Positions 28,966-37,507 of a DNA stretch of 64,000 bases are shown here, piece by piece; the stretch's first letter is position 1, and every line of letters starts with the position of its first letter. The notes below the pieces were generated by a model that was given only the letters and a program-made list of their open reading frames with translations, was not told the DNA's origin and did not search any database. Position numbers and translations under genes: made by a program. Origin of the DNA: Parasphingopyxis sp. CP4 (GTDB lineage: Bacteria > Pseudomonadota > Alphaproteobacteria > Sphingomonadales > Sphingomonadaceae); NCBI RefSeq assembly GCF_013378055.1, contig NZ_CP051130.1, positions 1,116,001-1,180,000 of the forward strand, given 5' to 3'.

Positions 28966-30339
28966 CTAAGCGTCGACTGGCAGGGTCAGCACAAAGCGGG
29001 CGCCCTGTCCGCGGGCACTATCGACATCGATATCGCCGCCCATTGCGCGCGCAAGTCGCCGCGCAATGTAAAGACCGAGCCCGGTGCCCGGTTCACTGGC
29101 CGATAGCCGTTCGAATTTCTCAAAAATGCGAGGCTGATCCTCAGCCGATATTCCGCGTCCCTGATCAGCAACGATCACCGCTGCAAGATCGCCCTCGCTC
29201 TCGCATCGGATCCAGACCTGGCTATCCTCCGGGGCAAAGCGCACAGCATTGCCCACCAGGTTCACCAAAATCTGGAGCACCCGCTTATAGTCAGCGCGTG
29301 CCGGCAAAGATTCGTCATCTGCCGGTTGGTCGATACGGATTTTCTTTTCGCTGGCGCGCACCGAAAGCAAGCCGGCGGCATCACGAGCGATATCGGCGAG
29401 ATCGATATCTTGCACTTCGGGCGTAAAATCTGGTCGCTCAACAGCCTGGAGATCGACAAGGTCATCGATCAGCCCAAGCAAGTGGCGTCCGGCGCGCGAG
29501 ATATCGCCCGCATATTCGGCATAGTCGCCACGGATCGGCCCCTCGAGCTGCGCCTCGATACTGTGTGCACTGGCCACGATCCGGTCGAGCGGCGCCCGCA
29601 GCGCGCGGTCGATCTGGCGCCCGAAGGCATCCGGAATTTCGGCATCATTTGCGGCAGGTTGAACGGCAACAGCCTCTGCAGCCTGCGCAGTTGCGGTACC
29701 GCGAAATCCTCCAAAGCGTCCAGCTCCGTCAATCAAGGGAACCGCCGTCAGCTCAACCCGCTGATCTCCATCGGGGCGAAGCACTGCCTCTTGCCGCGCA
29801 AACCGACGATGCTCAGCCAGGGCGTTGAGAATCGGGAGCGCGCCATCAACGCCTTCGACAAAGCGAAACAGCCCGGTAAGCGGTTGGCCAATATAGGGAT
29901 CGAGCGACCCTAATGCGGCCTCGGCATCCGGTGACAACGCCGTCAGTCGCAACGCATGGTCGGTCTCCCAAAGCCAATCTGCATCTGCCCGCAAAAAATC
30001 ATGGTCTCGCAAGCCGTCATTGCCGCCCTCAGGTGAGATTGGGTCCCGCTCGACCCATCCGCCAATCGCGAGCTTAACCCCTTCGCTATCGGGCTCGGCT
30101 TGAATGTGTAGCTCAACATCGCGATCACCCTTCGCCGCAATGACGCTGCGCGACACGGCGACGCCCAGCCTTTCCGCTAGTTTTGCAAGAGCCGCAATTT
30201 GCGGAATTGCGAGGCTGCCACCCGGCACTCCGCCTGCACCCTCGTGAAGATCTTCCAACAGGGGATCAGCAGCAACAAGGCATCCCTGATTGTCGACCCG
30301 TCCAACGGACACGGCATTTGAGGCTCCGAAATCCGTCAT
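28966..30339 (-). CDS. Histidine-kinase-like protein lacking the phospho-acceptor histidine
   Basis: A 457-residue soluble protein with a PAS-like region (about 115-218), a HisKA-type dimerisation helix (about 237-300) and a complete HATPase domain. The ATPase has the N box (N360-LVGN364), G1 (DQGRG, 392-396), an F box (IFEKFERL) and G2 (GTGLGL, 418-423). In the HisKA helix the usual SHELRTPL reads DRALRAPL, so Arg245 occupies the histidine site. It may bind ATP but cannot autophosphorylate there. It overlaps the upstream DUF2336 gene by 4 bp. No membrane segment is seen. Confidence 0.85.
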   Translation of the reverse strand: MTDFGASNAVSVGRVDNQGCLVAADPLLEDLHEGAGGVPGGSLAIPQIAALAKLAERLGVAVSRSVIAAKGDRDVELHIQAEPDSEGVKLAIGGWVERDPISPEGGNDGLRDHDFLRADADWLWETDHALRLTALSPDAEAALGSLDPYIGQPLTGLFRFVEGVDGALPILNALAEHRRFARQEAVLRPDGDQRVELTAVPLIDGAGRFGGFRGTATAQAAEAVAVQPAANDAEIPDAFGRQIDRALRAPLDRIVASAHSIEAQLEGPIRGDYAEYAGDISRAGRHLLGLIDDLVDLQAVERPDFTPEVQDIDLADIARDAAGLLSVRASEKKIRIDQPADDESLPARADYKRVLQILVNLVGNAVRFAPEDSQVWIRCESEGDLAAVIVADQGRGISAEDQPRIFEKFERLSASEPGTGLGLYIARRLARAMGGDIDVDSARGQGARFVLTLPVDA

Positions 30340-31466
30340 GACGATGCGCCTCGATTGGCGGACGAGAGGTACGACAGGGCACTGCGATAGGCCGGATCTA
30401 CCCGCCATGCCCGCATCGCCTCCTCAACATTCGTCGCGTCCAGCGTATCATATGTTTCGATCCACGCCGCGGCGTGATTGTCGGCCGTAGCTTCGTCTTG
30501 CGAAACTGCCCTGCTTATCATGGTCACTAACTGGGAAGCGGTATCGCGATCGACACCGATGGATTTGAGCAAAACCATATGCGTCGCCACATCGGGCATG
30601 GATATCATGTCCCAGGCCGCTTCGAACTCAATCTCAGCACGCACGGCCACCATCGCGACATAGAGATGCAGCCGCGCCCCGTGCACGGCTTCAACCCATA
30701 GTGAGGGATCGACAGATCCAGCATCTTGCAACGCAGTCGCAAGTGTTTCGGCAGCGACGGCAAGCGCTGAAGTGTCATCATGCTCGGCAACCATTGCGCC
30801 CGCCACCAAGGTAACAACGGTTTCAAGCCGCGCCTGATCGAGCTCGTCAAACCGCTTTCCATAATCGCGAATTGCCGCAGCGATTGTCCATATCAACCGA
30901 CGGGCAACAGGCTCAGGTAAATCAGCCCGGCCAAGACGCGGGTCATCGAAGCGATCATTGGATCGACTCTCAGCAATCAATAGATTCATTGCGCTTGCCG
31001 AGATTGCAGGTTCGGTGTGTTCGGTCAGCTGCTCGATTACTGAGTCTTCGGCGACACTCCCGAAGCGTCGCAAGTAACGGATGATCGTATAGGCTCGGGC
31101 ACGCTGCACCAGTAGCTTGGCCAGTTCGGTGTCATCAGGCAGCTCGGCGGCCGAAAGCGCCGGCCAGGCAATTGCGATATGGGGTGCGCTCAACGATGCG
31201 GTGAATTCTTCAACGGTCTCCAAATCGGGTGAGGCCAAGATACGGGCGCGCAGCTCTTGCTCGATCTGTTCGACCAAGCCGAGCAGCATCTCCCGAATTA
31301 CCCGGCGTTCGACTTCGCTGAGCCGCACAACCTCTGGCCGCATCAGGGCCGCAATGGACAAATACCCACTAAATGATCGGCCATAGGACGCGCGCGCGGC
31401 CGCCGCGAGCAACGCAGCAGCGCGCTCGTCGGCAGTTTCCGGGGCAGAATTGGCCGGATCAGACAT
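30336..31466 (-). CDS. DUF2336 domain-containing protein
   Basis: A 376-residue, nearly all-helical, acidic cytosolic protein of the DUF2336 type, recognised by the LLAAAARASYGRSFSGYLSI and EVERRVIREMLLGLVEQIEQ segments and a long alpha-helical remainder. The family is common in alphaproteobacteria; its role is unknown, though members often lie near signalling genes. The stop codon overlaps the ATG of the histidine-kinase-like gene (ATGA), so the two proteins are made together and may interact. Confidence 0.78.
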   Translation of the reverse strand: MSDPANSAPETADERAAALLAAAARASYGRSFSGYLSIAALMRPEVVRLSEVERRVIREMLLGLVEQIEQELRARILASPDLETVEEFTASLSAPHIAIAWPALSAAELPDDTELAKLLVQRARAYTIIRYLRRFGSVAEDSVIEQLTEHTEPAISASAMNLLIAESRSNDRFDDPRLGRADLPEPVARRLIWTIAAAIRDYGKRFDELDQARLETVVTLVAGAMVAEHDDTSALAVAAETLATALQDAGSVDPSLWVEAVHGARLHLYVAMVAVRAEIEFEAAWDMISMPDVATHMVLLKSIGVDRDTASQLVTMISRAVSQDEATADNHAAAWIETYDTLDATNVEEAMRAWRVDPAYRSALSYLSSANRGASS

Positions 31467-31520
31467 GGCAGAGACATAGCCGAAACGTCGTTAAGACCGT
31501 GCTAATCTTGTTTCAGGAGC

Positions 31521-32759
31521 TCAGTCTCGGTTGCGAACGCCCTCTCTGATGATATTTTGCTGTAATATCAGTGTGATATAGGCATAAATTACGACCGCGA
31601 TAGGCCAGTAATACCAGAGAGCAGCTGCGGCAAATGGAATTATCAGCCAAATCGCCGCGTTTCCGTCGGCCAGCCAGGGCATCAAACGGCTCTCAAAATT
31701 GGGAAATTTGCGGATCTGAACGCTCGCACGTCGTGCCAGAACGAGCAGCAAGATCGCCATGATTGCCATCACTGGATAGGCTGCTTCTCCTGTTTCGGCC
31801 CAAGCAAGACTGCCCATGGCCAACATCGCGGTCGCCTGGGCAAAGCCGCGCACCGCTCGCAGCTCCCAGCTGCCCTCATAATCGCGCAGCTGGGCGAGAT
31901 CGATACGGCCAGCAATGGCATCAATCGGACCGGCGAGCAGCAGCAAGATCAGCCCGGTCCAAAGCCACGTCATCCAGATTGCCGCTGCCCCTGCCGCGGT
32001 AAGAAGGATCGCGAAGCCGCGAAGCCAAATCGCGTCCAACCGACGATCGAGAAGCATCGGCGCAACGCGTATCGCAATCGGGCCATAGAGAAACCGCTCG
32101 GGCCAACTTTCAACCTGGACGCTGTTTCGCCGCAACATGGTATGCCCGGCATCGCGGCTATCATCCTTGCCCTCGGCCAGCAGGACGGCTTCACTCGCGT
32201 CGACGACAACACCGGCATCGCCATCTACTGGCAGAAAGTCTGCTCCGCCCTGAACAATCCTCCGCATCAGGGTTGATTGCAGATCCCACTCACCGAGCAT
32301 CTGCGCCGTCGCGGCAACGCTCTCGACCGTCGTCAGCGCAAGTCCCGCCCATCGGTGGCTGGCATCGACGCGCTCAAACTCCGTATTGTCTGGTGTGTCG
32401 GCGACAACCAAAATGGTCGGCGCTGTCCGCGCTGCCATCGCCTCAAAACAATCTGGTGCCGCCACCAACCCGTCAGCGACCAGCAGCACAGCTTCCTCGG
32501 GATGAAAATGATCGGCGGCATCCATTGGATCGCGGGCGAGCCGGACCGCAATTCCATCGCGCTTCAATCGATCAAGTGCGGCACTGAGTTCGGCGGGTAC
32601 CCGCTCAACAAGCACGACAGCATGGCTCGCGCCCGCTTCAATCGCCCGGCGAACCTGATGCTCCAAAAGGCTGCGACCAGCCATTGGCAGCATTGCCCGA
32701 AGCCCGGCAGCGCCGTCTTCTGCTTCCTGATAGGCCGCGATTAGCGCCGCAAAAGCCAT
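31521..32759 (-). CDS. Membrane protein resembling a degenerate nucleotidyltransferase/CDP-alcohol phosphotransferase fusion
   Basis: A 412-residue protein. Residues 1-200 look like a sugar-nucleotidyltransferase Rossmann fold (LPMAGRSLLEHQVRRAIEAG at 24-43; LLVADGLVA at 92-100), but the glycine-rich nucleotide loop before it is missing. Residues 205-412 hold several membrane segments in the pattern of CDP-alcohol phosphotransferases; the expected DxxDG..AR site reads GPIDAIAGRI (277-286), with only one Asp and the Arg kept. Both activities are therefore doubtful. ATG 32759 is chosen; a start 21 codons upstream is possible. Confidence 0.6.
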   Translation of the reverse strand: MAFAALIAAYQEAEDGAAGLRAMLPMAGRSLLEHQVRRAIEAGASHAVVLVERVPAELSAALDRLKRDGIAVRLARDPMDAADHFHPEEAVLLVADGLVAAPDCFEAMAARTAPTILVVADTPDNTEFERVDASHRWAGLALTTVESVAATAQMLGEWDLQSTLMRRIVQGGADFLPVDGDAGVVVDASEAVLLAEGKDDSRDAGHTMLRRNSVQVESWPERFLYGPIAIRVAPMLLDRRLDAIWLRGFAILLTAAGAAAIWMTWLWTGLILLLLAGPIDAIAGRIDLAQLRDYEGSWELRAVRGFAQATAMLAMGSLAWAETGEAAYPVMAIMAILLLVLARRASVQIRKFPNFESRLMPWLADGNAAIWLIIPFAAAALWYYWPIAVVIYAYITLILQQNIIREGVRNRD

Positions 32760-32868
32760 AAGTTCCGTTCCGCTGCCATCCGCCCACGGAATAGGCTTAC
32801 AAAGCCTTGCTTGGAAAGGCATCTGGACTGCAAATCGGGGGATTTTTCGCCTGCGCGGCGAACGTCAA

Positions 32869-33195
32869 TTATTCGCTTTCGTCGCCAAAATCGAAGCTGT
32901 TCGAAAAGCCGGCAAGCGACTTATCGATGCGATGAAGCAGCATTTGATCAAATGGGGCGCCCTCTGCGGCCTGATTGGCGAGGACCATCAAATCGGTCAC
33001 ACCAAAGCTTGCAGCAAGGCCTTTAAGCCGCCATGCGGCCACCTGCCATTGCTGATCGTTAACAGCGTTGTGAAGCGCAGAAACCTGCCGTTGCGCGCTT
33101 TGAACAAACGCAGAACGAAGTTCCGAAATCAGCGTCGGATCGTCGCCGACAGCGGCGGCGAGCGTTTTATCAAGGGCGCCTGGATCATATGCCAT
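32869..33195 (-). CDS. Hpt-like protein lacking the phospho-acceptor histidine
   Basis: A 108-residue helical protein with the histidine phosphotransfer (Hpt) fold signature AAWRLKGLAASFG at 53-65. In active Hpt domains this reads A-H-x-L-K-G; here Trp55 stands at the histidine and Leu57-Lys58-Gly59 are kept. The codon is TGG, with no sign of a frameshift. It probably works by binding rather than phosphotransfer. It shares strand and neighbourhood with the histidine-kinase-like gene that also lacks its histidine. Confidence 0.8.
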   Translation of the reverse strand: MAYDPGALDKTLAAAVGDDPTLISELRSAFVQSAQRQVSALHNAVNDQQWQVAAWRLKGLAASFGVTDLMVLANQAAEGAPFDQMLLHRIDKSLAGFSNSFDFGDESE

Positions 33196-33294
33196 AGTGT
33201 GGCCCTAACGCATCGCCGTTAACGCTCCGTTGCCAAACCGGGCTTCCGACGGGCCTAAAACATGGTAAATACGCCCAACCGAGAGGGAAATGCG

Positions 33295-35586
33295 ATGGCC
33301 GAACCTGCAAATGACGTGACGGATCTCGAACGTAATGCCGAGGCGCTGTCCGCGCATATCAGCACAAACGCCGGTACCAGCGAATGGATCGACGAAGAGG
33401 AATGGGATTTTGATCTCGAGGCGCCTTCTTTTGCGGAACGGGTGCCGACAATCATCATCGCATTGCTTGCTCTTGCCTGGACAGGATTTGTCGGTTGGGC
33501 CGCTTATTCGAGCATTGCCGACGAAGCACCGACTTTGACACAGATCGCAAACTGGGTTGCCATTGCAAGCGTGCCGCTGGCGCTCCTTGGTGTCGCTTGG
33601 CTGCTAACCCAACGCACAAGCCGCCGCGAAGCGATCCGCTTTGGGCGCACGTCAGAGGCCCTTCGTGCTGAGGCTCGTCGGCTCGACAATGCAATGGCCG
33701 TCATATCTGCCCAGCTAGCAGAAGTTCGCGAAGGCGTTTCGGGTGAAACCGATCGCCTGCTGACGCTTGGCGATGATGCTGCAGGTCGTATGCGCGCCGT
33801 AAGCGACATGATTGGCGAGGCCAGTCAGTCGATCGAGCAAAAATCCAGCGTCATGGAAAAGGCAACGAAAACGGCACGCGAAGATGTCGAAGTCCTGATG
33901 AACGATCTTCCACGTGCTGAACAACAGGCCCGGGCGGTTAGCACTGGACTGCGCGAAGCCGGCATTAATGCGCATGAGCAAGCAGCCGCACTTGATACGC
34001 AGATGCTGACCCTCAAATCTCGCGGAGAGCAGGCCAATGAGGTGGCGAACGGCGCGGCCCAATCATTGGCTGCAAATCTCGCGCGCATTGAAGGTGTTGC
34101 AGAAGTTGCCGCGGCAAAACTGACAAGCACCGGAGATCTGATCAATTCAACCGTCGATGCGGCCCTCGATCGTTCCAGTGGCGCAGTAGAAGACACCCGT
34201 ACAGTCGTCGACGAAATCGGCACTGCCTTAACCGCAATGATCGAAAATGCCCGCACCAGCTTTAGCAAGGAAGGCGAAGAGGCAGCCGCCGCGCTTGATG
34301 AGCGCATCGCGTCAACGGATGCCGCACTTTCAGCATTCAGCAATCGCTTGGACGAACACCGGACAGCGACATCCGCGACGCTCGGTGATCTGGGCACAGG
34401 GCTTGGCGATATTGAAGGTCGCATCTCCAGCCTATCTGAAGATGGTGCAACCCATGCCCGGGCACTCGGCGAAGAACTAGATAGCCTGGGTCGGGAGATG
34501 GCCGCATTAGGCGAGAGCATTGGCGGCAATGATGAGGCAACAGAACGCCTGATCGCCCGCGCCGCAGAGGTGAAGGCAGCGCTGGACCTCAGTGCGTCCT
34601 CGCTAAGCGATGCGCTTCCGGAGGCGTTTGCAGCCACCGAAGAACGCGCTGTGCACCTGAAAGAGGCGATCACCGATCTGGCCCCCGAACTCGAGACGCT
34701 GCAGAAACTTGCAGACGATACAAGCAGCTTCATCAGCGTGACCGGCGAAAGTTTGGAAGATCAGCGGAGTCAGGTCGGCGTATTTGTCGAAAGGGTCGGT
34801 GATCGTATTACCGCCATGCGGACAGATATTGATAGCATCGAGGCCGCTCTCACCCATTCGTCGGAACAGGCCGAAAGTATTGCCGATGGCGCTGCGCCTC
34901 GGTTGATCGAAACACTGATGCAGGTTCGTGAAACCGCTGATCAGGCAGCCGAGAAAGCACGGGCCGCATTTGGCGAAGTTATCCCACAAAGTGCGGCGGC
35001 TCTGACCGAGGCCACTCAGGCAGCGATGACGGATGCTCTTGGTGAAAATGTCGAAGCGCGCATTGCCGAGCTAACAGCCGCTTCCGAACGGGCAGCCGAA
35101 ACTGCGACTACTGCAATCGCAAATCTCGACAGAAAGATTGCCGAGATTGAGAGCAGGAATTCGTCGGTCCAGCAGCAACTCAGAGAAACGGAGGCAAGCG
35201 CTGAAGAGGCGACGCTCGACGGTTTCGCTCGCAGCGTGACGCTGTTGATTGAATCACTGAACTCAACAGCAATCGATGTCAGCAAGATCCTCTCCAATGA
35301 GGTCACCGACACCGCTTGGGCCGCTTATCTCAAAGGCGATCGCGGTATCTTTTCGCGCCGCGCTGTACGCTTACTGGATACGGGTGAAGCCCGTGAAATC
35401 GTTGCTGAATATGAAAATAACAGCGATTTCCGCGAGCAGGTCAATCGCTATGTGCACGACTTTGAAGCGATGCTCCGCCGGGTTCTGACTGCACGCGATG
35501 GGGCGCCGCTCGCTGTGACACTGTTATCCTCGGATAATGGCAAGCTCTATGTTGCGCTCGCCCAGGCGATCGAACGCCTGCGCTAA
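33295..35586 (+). CDS. Large membrane-anchored coiled-coil protein (TipN-like)
   Basis: A 763-residue protein with an acidic N-terminus, two membrane segments (about 50-72 and 84-105), then about 550 residues of Ala/Glu/Ser/Thr-rich coiled coil. A conserved-looking C-terminal domain follows, with DVSKILSNEVTDTAWAAYLK, GIFSRRAVRLLD and VNRYVHDFEAMLRRVL. The layout recalls the Caulobacter polarity factor TipN, and I recall a similar C-terminal segment there, but this is not verified. The ATG at 33295 has a GAGAGGG site 7 bases away; another ATG at 33262 lacks one. It is divergent from the Hpt-like gene. Confidence 0.72.
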   Translation: MAEPANDVTDLERNAEALSAHISTNAGTSEWIDEEEWDFDLEAPSFAERVPTIIIALLALAWTGFVGWAAYSSIADEAPTLTQIANWVAIASVPLALLGVAWLLTQRTSRREAIRFGRTSEALRAEARRLDNAMAVISAQLAEVREGVSGETDRLLTLGDDAAGRMRAVSDMIGEASQSIEQKSSVMEKATKTAREDVEVLMNDLPRAEQQARAVSTGLREAGINAHEQAAALDTQMLTLKSRGEQANEVANGAAQSLAANLARIEGVAEVAAAKLTSTGDLINSTVDAALDRSSGAVEDTRTVVDEIGTALTAMIENARTSFSKEGEEAAAALDERIASTDAALSAFSNRLDEHRTATSATLGDLGTGLGDIEGRISSLSEDGATHARALGEELDSLGREMAALGESIGGNDEATERLIARAAEVKAALDLSASSLSDALPEAFAATEERAVHLKEAITDLAPELETLQKLADDTSSFISVTGESLEDQRSQVGVFVERVGDRITAMRTDIDSIEAALTHSSEQAESIADGAAPRLIETLMQVRETADQAAEKARAAFGEVIPQSAAALTEATQAAMTDALGENVEARIAELTAASERAAETATTAIANLDRKIAEIESRNSSVQQQLRETEASAEEATLDGFARSVTLLIESLNSTAIDVSKILSNEVTDTAWAAYLKGDRGIFSRRAVRLLDTGEAREIVAEYENNSDFREQVNRYVHDFEAMLRRVLTARDGAPLAVTLLSSDNGKLYVALAQAIERLR

Positions 35587-35869: not shown

Positions 35870-37507
35870 CTAAACCTCCATCAGGGACACATTGACCACC
35901 GGTTTCTTGCCGGTCCAATGCGTGGCCATTCTCCGCACGGCCAATCGAATAGCCTCACGCAGTTTTTCGGGATCGCTAGCGCCGGCGCGCGCCGCATTGG
36001 CAGCGGCCTCAATCGCCTCATCGATAAATGTCTCACGATCTTCCTCGACCGGAATGCCGGCCATTGAGAAGGATGGACTGCCGCGCATCTTGCCATCTGC
36101 GCCAAAGGCCACGGTCACGGCGATCAAGCCACGTTGGCCGATCCGGCGTCGCTCGTTCATCGCCTCGCCGTCCGCCGCAACAATCGTATCCCCGTCGAGC
36201 ACGAGACGCCCCACTCGCTCATGGCTGATTATTTTGGGGCCGTCGGGCGCAAGACGGACCACATCGCCATTCTGCTGAACAATGGTCTTGGGAATCCCCT
36301 GCGACGCGCCGAACCGCGCTTGCTCCGCCATATGGCGCATTTCGCCATGTACGGGCACCAATATCTCCGGCCGAATCCACTCGTACATTTTTGCGAGCTC
36401 GGGACGACCCGGATGCCCGGATACATGCACCATGGCCTGGCGATCCGTGATGATCGGTATCTGTTTCTCTGCCAGCGCATTCTGAATGCGGCCGATGGCG
36501 AGCTCGTTGCCGGGTATCTGCTTGGAGCTGAAAATGATCAAATCTCCGCTGTCCAGGGTCAACGGATGATTATCTTCGGCAATCCGCCCCAGCGCGGCAC
36601 GGGATTCCCCCTGCCCACCTGTGGCAATGATCAGCAGCTCGCGCGCCGGAATGCGCATGGCTTCGTCAAAATCGATGGTCGGCGGAAAATCCTTCAGATA
36701 GCCGACTGCCTTGGCGGTATCGATAATCCGATTGAGCGAGCGCCCGGCGACGCAGACTTTGCGCCCGGTTTCGTTCGCGATCCGCCCCAGCGTCTGCAGT
36801 CGCGCTGCATTGGATGCAAAGGTTGTTACGAGTACGCGGCCGGTTGCCTCGCTGATAATCTCGCCAAGTCCAGCCTTGACCGCGCCTTCGCTGCCAGAGT
36901 CTTTCTGATTGAAAACATTGGTCGAATCGCAGACCAGCGCCAAAATTCCAGTATCACCAATCGCCTTCATTTCTTCCGGGCTGGTCGGCGTGCCGGTTTG
37001 TGGATCGGGATCGAGCTTCCAATCGCCGGTATGGAACACACGCCCATGGTCTGTCTCAATGACCAGCGCATTGCCCTCAAGTATCGAGTGAGCAAGCGGG
37101 ATGTACCGAAAACCAAAGGGGCCAAGCTCAAAATCAGTTTCCGGCTCGATAACGTTCAGTTCGACCTGTTCCGTGAGACTCGCCTCTTCGAGTTTCCGAT
37201 AGATCAGACCCGCCGTGAATGCGGTCGCATAAAGCGGAACGCCCAAATCGGCTGCCAGATAGGGAATCGCACCGATATGATCTTCATGGCCATGGGTCAG
37301 CACGATGCCGAGCAGATCATCCGCGCGGTCTTCGATAAACTCCAGCTCAGGCAGGACGAGTTCGATGCCGGGATAATAGGGATCGCCAAAGGTCATGCCA
37401 CAATCAACCATGACCCATTTGCCCTGGGTACCGTAGAGATTGACGTTCATGCCAATCTCGCCCGACCCGCCGAGCGCGAGGAAAAGCAATTCGTTTTTGG
37501 GTGTCAT
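35870..37507 (-). CDS. rnj: Ribonuclease J
   Basis: A 545-residue RNase J family protein: a metallo-beta-lactamase nuclease with the THGHEDHIGAIPYL zinc motif near residue 73, the beta-CASP insert with VLVTTFASNAARLQ, and a C-terminal domain. The family has 5' exonuclease and endonuclease activity in mRNA turnover and rRNA maturation. It lies between coaX and the DUF1467 gene on the same strand; 6 bp separate it from coaX. Confidence 0.95.
   Translation of the reverse strand: MTPKNELLFLALGGSGEIGMNVNLYGTQGKWVMVDCGMTFGDPYYPGIELVLPELEFIEDRADDLLGIVLTHGHEDHIGAIPYLAADLGVPLYATAFTAGLIYRKLEEASLTEQVELNVIEPETDFELGPFGFRYIPLAHSILEGNALVIETDHGRVFHTGDWKLDPDPQTGTPTSPEEMKAIGDTGILALVCDSTNVFNQKDSGSEGAVKAGLGEIISEATGRVLVTTFASNAARLQTLGRIANETGRKVCVAGRSLNRIIDTAKAVGYLKDFPPTIDFDEAMRIPARELLIIATGGQGESRAALGRIAEDNHPLTLDSGDLIIFSSKQIPGNELAIGRIQNALAEKQIPIITDRQAMVHVSGHPGRPELAKMYEWIRPEILVPVHGEMRHMAEQARFGASQGIPKTIVQQNGDVVRLAPDGPKIISHERVGRLVLDGDTIVAADGEAMNERRRIGQRGLIAVTVAFGADGKMRGSPSFSMAGIPVEEDRETFIDEAIEAAANAARAGASDPEKLREAIRLAVRRMATHWTGKKPVVNVSLMEV

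Follow-up and report, generated by a model that had tools for sequence, protein, structure and literature searches.

A stretch of 64,000 nucleotides from Parasphingopyxis sp. CP4 (contig NZ_CP051130.1, positions 1,116,001 to 1,180,000), hereafter the window, contains a five-gene cluster between gltA and rnj that encodes a histidine kinase-like protein (HKL), a DUF2336 protein, a membrane protein (NTPM), an Hpt-like protein (HPTL) and a coiled-coil-like protein (COIL). HKL has an intact ATP site and lacks the phospho-acceptor histidine, and a homologue encoded elsewhere in the genome, termed HisP, displays the opposite losses. The two proteins may constitute a split kinase carried by a membrane or polar scaffold, a reading that is put forward tentatively, as the likeliest of those considered and somewhat short of probable.

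Opposite losses in HKL and HisP

The ATPase domain of HKL is intact (Pfam HATPase_c, 1.2e-28), and its HisKA match is weak and below the cut-off (Pfam, 0.014). The H-box of the window protein reads D-R-A-L-R-A-P-L, with arginine in place of histidine. Histidine is absent from this position in 67 of 71 aligned sequences, where the residues found are K (19), R (16), Q (10), P (7), T (5), H (4), A (4), N (2), G (2), V (1) and D (1), with no tyrosine. By contrast, the N-box asparagine, the aspartate and glycine of G1 and two glycines of G2 are kept in all 71. These rows include the window, leave out matches below 200 bits (L054, L065, L067 and L104), and contain three repeated genomes (L060, L061 and L063, equal to L034, L033 and L039). 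The canonical SHELRTP motif is present in two of them (L043 and L056); the HKLs of L095 and L045 have an isolated histidine without the remaining canonical motif, possibly through reversion. In further loci of the family, the Sphingomonadaceae, the histidine is missing from 7 of 7 readable sequences in one set and from 15 of 20 in another, the remaining five of which carry SHELRTP (G085, G089, G073, G116 and G175).

Within the order but outside the family, 23 genomes gave an HKL-profile match, and 17 of the loci were fetched. The pair formed there by a DUF2336 protein and a histidine kinase (DUF2336-HK) keeps SHELRTP in 16 of the 17, one not being read. The H-box pattern did not read G040 and G034, and the 208-bit kinase of G031 (L227) is another histidine kinase. 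DUF2336 was seen in 16 of the 17, and the exception is a 3.7-kb contig. The pair was therefore an ordinary kinase once, whose histidine was lost within the Sphingomonadaceae.

HisP (G000:C1:957092-958768) lies about 157 kb outside the window and is one of 17 HKL-like matches in the 2.96-Mb host genome. It comprises a PAS-like region, a DHp domain with LIHELRTPLNAI, and an ATPase-type domain without the N-box Asn or DxGxG; Pfam finds HisKA alone. The histidine is kept in all 29 readable loci (30 loci, one a fragment), in the form HExx[TN] in 26, and the N-box Asn and DxGxG occur in none of the 29. Homology between HisP and HKL extends across PAS-DHp-CA (328 columns, hhalign probability 99.7, E 2.4e-26). 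Judged by residues, the ATP-binding and histidine functions of a kinase lie here on two proteins. The motif HE/DxxN/T is described as a phosphatase motif and was used in a search for other split kinases (PMC3591291).

With the HisP profile, ten matches were obtained among DUF2336-type proteins from other families (E 1.6e-6 to 2.8e-12), and the N-terminus of HisP has no significant match to the Sphingomonadaceae DUF2336 profile. Four HisP relatives from other families (L259-L262) have the same histidine with the ATPase boxes already gone, as judged by eye; three share the Lrp-type neighbour of HisP, and three of the four genomes (G050, G038 and G058) have a canonical DUF2336-HK. Because HisP relatives without an ATPase coexist with a canonical DUF2336-HK, the loss of ATP binding in HisP seems to have preceded that of the histidine in HKL, an order that plausibly acted as a ratchet into mutual dependence. 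At L158:6039-7178, HisP overlaps a downstream gene, named by eye as polysaccharide-deacetylase-like, and has a divergent AsnC/Lrp-type regulator, a neighbour common to other families.

Co-occurrence of HKL and HisP

Co-occurrence was scored in 149 genomes of the family with a completeness of 95% or more, with limits of E <= 1e-80 for HKL and E <= 1e-40 for HisP. HKL was found in 122 and HisP in 128; both are present in 121 genomes, neither in 20, HKL alone in 1 and HisP alone in 7 (Fisher 6e-18, not tree-corrected). The HKL-only genome is G085, whose HKL has a canonical histidine of its own, and in six of the seven HisP-only genomes the HisP match begins after residue 150 or holds a stop. A midpoint-rooted gyrA tree was computed for 60 genomes, namely all 28 without one or both genes and 32 of the 121 with both. 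Five of eight HisP losses fall on an HKL-loss branch, with 0.75 expected (p 2.5e-4), and seven on the same branch as an HKL loss or a nested one, against a null of 3.5 (p 0.008). The main His-less group has 41 members; the five SHELRTP genomes are not among them and are separated from it by the weakly supported midpoint root. Two changes in the HKL histidine trait are needed to account for the rows scored.

The DUF2336 protein and NTPM

The DUF2336 gene is the sole DUF2336 match in the host genome. SpbR (NCBIfam NF052659), which we take to be a Caulobacter pole protein, belongs to the same superfamily: the HK-paired DUF2336 proteins of other families match its model with 2e-45 to 6e-51. The window protein differs in lying far below the 400-bit cut-off of the model (27.2 bits, 2e-6), and eight DUF2336 relatives score 156-187 bits. 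A comparison of the DUF2336 profile with PDB sequences gave nothing of note (best E 0.48). In L228, L233, L236 and L237, which are from other families, a second SpbR-like DUF2336 gene (1e-46 to 7e-55) was observed near the DUF2336-HK pair, on the opposite strand.

NTPM matches NTP_transf_3 weakly (Pfam, 0.026), and the CDP-alcohol phosphotransferase motif of the window protein has lost D2, the A-R and the last acids. The NTPM profile matches the bifunctional inositol enzyme IPCT-DIPPS (4MND; E 1.1e-14), which is also the best fold for the predicted structure over its full length (mean pLDDT 86.5; Foldseek E 2.2e-12, TM 0.60/0.63). The protein shares the two-domain fold of IPCT-DIPPS, and differs in the loss of the catalytic residues of both domains. 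DxxDGxxAR is intact in 4 of 84 rows, three rows being blank there: L040 and L044 of the same family, and L053 and L057 of other families. The nucleotidyltransferase signature is absent even in these four. Floors of 100 bits for NTPM and 60 bits for HPTL removed no listed row.

The two family members with an intact motif stand at the locus itself (L040:6560-10720 and L044:8496-10837). In L040, NTPM still lies between DUF2336 and COIL, and its neighbours include an inositol-1-phosphate synthase (Pfam 7.9e-36), a nucleotidyltransferase (1.4e-15) and a second CDP-alcohol phosphotransferase (4.5e-11). NTPM, we infer, has been retained from an inositol-phospholipid-type cluster, of which it is a relic.

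HPTL, COIL and the polar-growth family

HPTL falls below the Pfam Hpt cut-off of 24.6 bits (20.3 bits, E 6.6e-4). In the window its motif reads A-W-R-L-K-G, with tryptophan in place of histidine, and histidine occurs in one of 76 sequences (L064), where it is isolated from the remaining canonical motif and is possibly a reversion. The first-pass annotation had described a kinase-like and an Hpt-like protein without their histidines, and a membrane protein without intact active sites, and these descriptions extend well beyond the window, as homologues at the locus seldom carry the catalytic residues (4 of 71 HKLs and 1 of 76 HPTLs have the histidine). The claim of a disabled kinase is too absolute for the family as a whole, some members of which keep the histidine (5 of 20 in one set; 4 of 71 in the other, two of them canonical).

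COIL has 763 residues with a long coiled-coil-like body and hydropathy peaks at residues 52-70 and 87-105; its closest named relatives, from metagenome-assembled genomes of Parasphingopyxis, are 77% and 75% identical. The C-terminal domain of 130 residues has one match each in 74 of 192 sampled Alphaproteobacteria, in open frames of 517 to 2,491 residues from stop to stop, and has no fold match in the PDB at E <= 0.001. A tblastn search with this domain, its letters taken from a G338 protein, led to a 2,089-residue protein of Sinorhizobium meliloti annotated 'kinesin'. The final 120 residues of that protein align with the COIL profile (hhalign 99.25, E 5.7e-20, 33% identity). By its length and features this is most likely RgsE, of the GPR family; the record is from another strain and carries the label pSymB despite its 3.7 Mb. 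RgsE of S. meliloti is described as having 2,089 residues and two transmembrane helices. It is a homologue of Agrobacterium GPR, a protein that makes a ring at the growth pole and is dependent on its C terminus (PMC7327166, PMC8262873).

The divergent neighbour of the S. meliloti protein is an Hpt that keeps its histidine (EAHRLKG, Pfam 3.9e-9). Matches to this Hpt were found in 36 genomes at class level, 20 of which also have the COIL domain. In 12 of the 20 the two genes are divergent and close, separated by 105 to 1,228 bases as estimated from open frames. The Hpt has the histidine in all 12; the query itself carries one and thus favours such Hpts. Since the divergent pair occurs with its histidine outside the family, it seems to be older than the Sphingomonadaceae, in which its Hpt would have lost the histidine. 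A direct comparison of HPTL with the S. meliloti Hpt was not significant by hhalign (probability 4.8) and gave no BLASTP match; position, together with the weak Pfam match, suggests the kinship of HPTL to His-bearing Hpts.

COIL thus resembles GPR/RgsE in two N-terminal membrane segments, a long helical body, a homologous C-terminal domain and a divergent Hpt neighbour. It differs in its length (763 against about 2,100 residues), in the missing histidine of the Hpt, in the adjoining HKL operon, and in being known here from sequence. The first-pass annotation had likened COIL to TipN, a possible resemblance in architecture; the conserved domain led to GPR/RgsE instead.

Gene order, selection and the divergent promoter

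The five frames are open at the positions listed in Table 1, four on the minus strand and COIL on the plus strand. The HKL frame can also open at 30408, and the start at 30339, where the frames of its relatives begin, is more likely. Similarly, 33295 is the more likely start of COIL, given that relatives' frames begin at the matching position; an earlier note had placed it at 33262. The DUF2336 stop and the HKL start share ATGA at 30339-30336, in line with the translational coupling first proposed for this pair, and the gene order suggests an operon HPTL-NTPM-DUF2336-HKL.

Table 1. Features of the cluster and its borders, in window coordinates
Feature	Position	Strand	Description
HKL	28966..30339	-	PAS, DHp without phospho-acceptor His (Arg), intact HATPase_c
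DUF2336 protein	30336..31466	-	ATGA overlap with HKL; weak SpbR-model match
NTPM	31521..32822	-	Membrane protein; degenerate nucleotidyltransferase fused to degenerate CDP-alcohol phosphotransferase (IPCT-DIPPS fold)
HPTL	32869..33195	-	Hpt-like; Trp at the His position
CtrA-box-like site TTAA-N7-TT	33219..33233	+	Conserved; in the divergent HPTL/COIL promoter region
COIL	33295..35586	+	Two hydrophobic segments, coiled-coil-like body, conserved C-terminal domain; GPR/RgsE-like
COIL C-terminal domain	35191..35583	+	
gltA	ends 28962		Citrate synthase; named from sequence and a relative's annotation
rnj	35870-37507		Ribonuclease J; named from sequence and a relative's annotation

The order gltA-HKL-DUF2336-NTPM-HPTL / COIL-rnj is widely kept in the Sphingomonadaceae, under purifying selection. 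A single-sequence search found NTPM in 30 of 60 genomes (27 of 36 from the same family and 3 of 24 from other families of the order), and a profile search adds further genomes, such as G011, G023 and G035. HKL-DUF2336-NTPM-COIL occurs in the same order and on the same strands in 20 of the 29 loci retrieved around matches outside the host genome in the 60-genome set (15 with HPTL recognised between), and in 46 of 80 named loci (27 with HPTL). The named loci were found through COIL, which is therefore present by construction, and their flanks extend to at most 10 kb, some being ended by contig ends. HKL adjoins gltA in 18 loci of the first set and 45 of the second. A good part of the 80 named loci shows HPTL-COIL(-rnj) alone in view, so the five genes are sometimes separate, and HKL reaches at least 200 bits in 49. 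Co-occurrence of the five genes is consequently borne out as a conserved neighbourhood with a shared order, and not as a set that is always together.

In Sphingomonas parapaucimobilis YK209 (L361), gltX, gltA, the cluster, rnj and nuoLMN were found on an 880-kb record labelled as a plasmid, perhaps a second chromosome or a mislabelled record. The set is annotated there as a histidine kinase, two hypothetical proteins, an 'Hpt domain-containing protein' and a hypothetical protein.

The median within-genus ratio of nonsynonymous to synonymous substitution rates (dN/dS) is 0.105 for HKL, 0.12 for NTPM, 0.093 for HPTL, 0.134 for COIL and 0.28 for DUF2336, compared with 0.094 for gltA, 0.097 for rnj and 0.11 for coaX, from the window and five relatives (15 pairs per gene, 13-15 usable, with the proportion of synonymous differences, pS, near saturation). 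The values of HKL, NTPM and HPTL are close to those of gltA and rnj, and the residue losses hold across the family, in agreement with the first-pass annotation that the intact frames are well kept and not decaying.

The HPTL/COIL promoter region was compared in 79 gaps (75 distinct), each from a locus where the starts of both genes were identifiable. Of the 75 gaps, 69 have a TTAA at a distance of 20-29 bases from the HPTL start, and in 65 of these 69 it is followed at N7 by TT (50 of 54 once near-duplicates are removed, null 4.8); the second half of the box is mostly TTTC or TTGC. CtrA sites are reported as TTAA-N7-TTAA(C) or half-sites that activate from near -35 (PMC7200025, PMC6180460), and CtrA is a likely candidate for the regulator of this promoter. 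CcrM sites (GANTC) are rarer in the gap than in shuffles (13 of 75, against 19.8). A second conserved block (TGGTAAA-like), located by eye at 33262-33330 of the window and in the orthologous gaps, stands just before COIL in many loci and is perhaps its -10 element.

Discussion

In the split-kinase model, the HPTL-NTPM-DUF2336-HKL operon and the divergent COIL gene would encode a membrane- or pole-associated signalling complex. HKL would be the ATP-binding half of the kinase and HisP the phospho-acceptor half, with its kept His-Glu-x-x-Thr, a dead ATPase and an N-terminus putatively related to DUF2336. HKL, together with the DUF2336 protein, would pair with HisP through the common DHp fold and phosphorylate it in trans, and HisP would pass the phosphate to, or take it from, a receiver. 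COIL, as a relative of GPR/RgsE, and NTPM, as a dead inositol-type phosphotransferase, may tether the complex to the membrane or position it there; the dead Hpt HPTL may act as a docking protein, and a CtrA-like regulator may time expression. The model builds on sequence evidence, namely the residues lost and kept, the homology of HKL and HisP, the order of loss, co-occurrence, synteny and the promoter site, whereas the HKL-HisP complex, phosphorylation in trans, localisation, the roles of NTPM and HPTL and the part of CtrA are inferred. CcsA of Sphingomonas melonis, a kinase said to act through ChpT (PMC7232146), was considered as a possible counterpart of HKL or HisP.

CheA3 and CheA4 of Rhodobacter sphaeroides likewise carry the ATP-binding and phospho-acceptor functions on two proteins (PMC3591291). 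The present case differs in that two PAS-DHp-CA proteins have opposite losses and no chemotaxis CheA is involved, and in being known from sequence. The first-pass annotation had proposed a scaffold or ATP-sensing module, perhaps linked to cell poles. The polar link is strengthened by the homology of the COIL C-terminal domain to the GPR/RgsE polar-growth family; the scaffold or sensor overlooks HisP, a second, mirror-image kinase-like gene that keeps the histidine.

Several observations weigh against the split kinase. Of the 128 genomes with HisP, 7 lack HKL, and the second glycine of the DxGxG box is changed in two family HKLs (G147 and L055). The full CtrA-like box precedes HisP in none of 20 loci; a TTAACCA half-site is present in 7 of 7 loci of the same genus. 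An independent-pairs sign test is not significant (p 0.0625-0.375), the pairs being too few, with pairs going opposite ways in 1 of 400 random pairings. Partial distance correlation (mirror-tree) does not discriminate, at 0.72 for HisP-HKL, 0.70 for HisP-NTPM and 0.71 for HKL-rnj. NTPM and COIL are present in two genomes where neither HKL nor HisP was found (G012, which is L044, and G022, which is L058); kinase and scaffold are therefore separable. Finally, HisP appears to have been without an ATPase before HKL lost its histidine, so HisP may take phosphate from another kinase.

The last point also speaks for a reading, close to the idea of the first-pass annotation, in which HKL would be a DivL-like pseudokinase that binds ATP without phosphotransfer and, with DUF2336, NTPM and HPTL, scaffolds the control of a polar kinase or receiver, HisP being independent. 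DivL is described as a pseudokinase concentrated at the poles in Alphaproteobacteria (PMC8116508). HKL resembles it as a HisKA-like protein without the catalytic histidine and with its ATPase domain kept, and differs in having Lys, Arg, Gln, Pro or another residue where DivL has Tyr. Such a variety of residues beside a kept ATP site favours this reading, and the loss of function in HPTL and NTPM as well would suit a purely structural complex. Nevertheless, a separate DivL-type kinase with the tyrosine (ISYELRTPL) is encoded in the same genome (L141, G000:C1:1033937-1034746), HKL and HisP are co-lost above chance on the tree, and a pure scaffold alone leaves the invariant ATP site, as opposed to the free histidine position, unexplained. 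We consider this reading a serious competitor, albeit one that is itself doubtful.

A more specific form of the partnership, a bistable pole kinase, is rather unlikely. The HKL ATPase and the histidine and phosphatase motif of HisP would work only together, on a GPR/RgsE-type protein and with the dead synthase as sensor or anchor.

HKL might also phosphorylate an acceptor other than HisP, or a residue other than histidine, the co-occurrence with HisP reflecting a shared pathway and nothing more. HisP and DUF2336-HK do coexist in other families in which the kinase keeps its own histidine, so the co-loss could arise in this way. This explanation is improbable; inspection by eye of the 17 HKL-like matches in the host genome showed no further DHp protein with a histidine and a dead ATPase, and HisP is a homologue of HKL. 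It is very improbable that there is no functional module, the conserved gltA-rnj neighbourhood keeping unrelated genes in place while HKL, NTPM and HPTL slowly decay: the fast evolution of DUF2336 and the loci with HPTL-COIL(-rnj) alone in view would fit, but the low dN/dS of the three genes (0.09-0.12), the invariant ATP site, the ATGA operon overlap and the conserved divergent promoter box argue against it.

No account of the cluster was found in the literature searched, which did not include the original SpbR and CcsA papers. The locus displays the conversion of enzymes into pseudoenzymes with living comparisons for each step, namely HKL with and without its histidine, the lipid-enzyme motif intact and dead, and the Hpt with and without its histidine. 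It is moreover tied to the GPR/RgsE polar-growth family, in an order from which most of the Caulobacter polarity module is reported to be missing (PMC8116508). If HKL and HisP do form a split kinase, they would offer a natural non-chemotaxis system for testing the bistability predicted for split kinases (PMC3591291). Should the bistable arrangement hold as well, the kinase/phosphatase split could give switch-like control, timed by CtrA, over polar growth or division.

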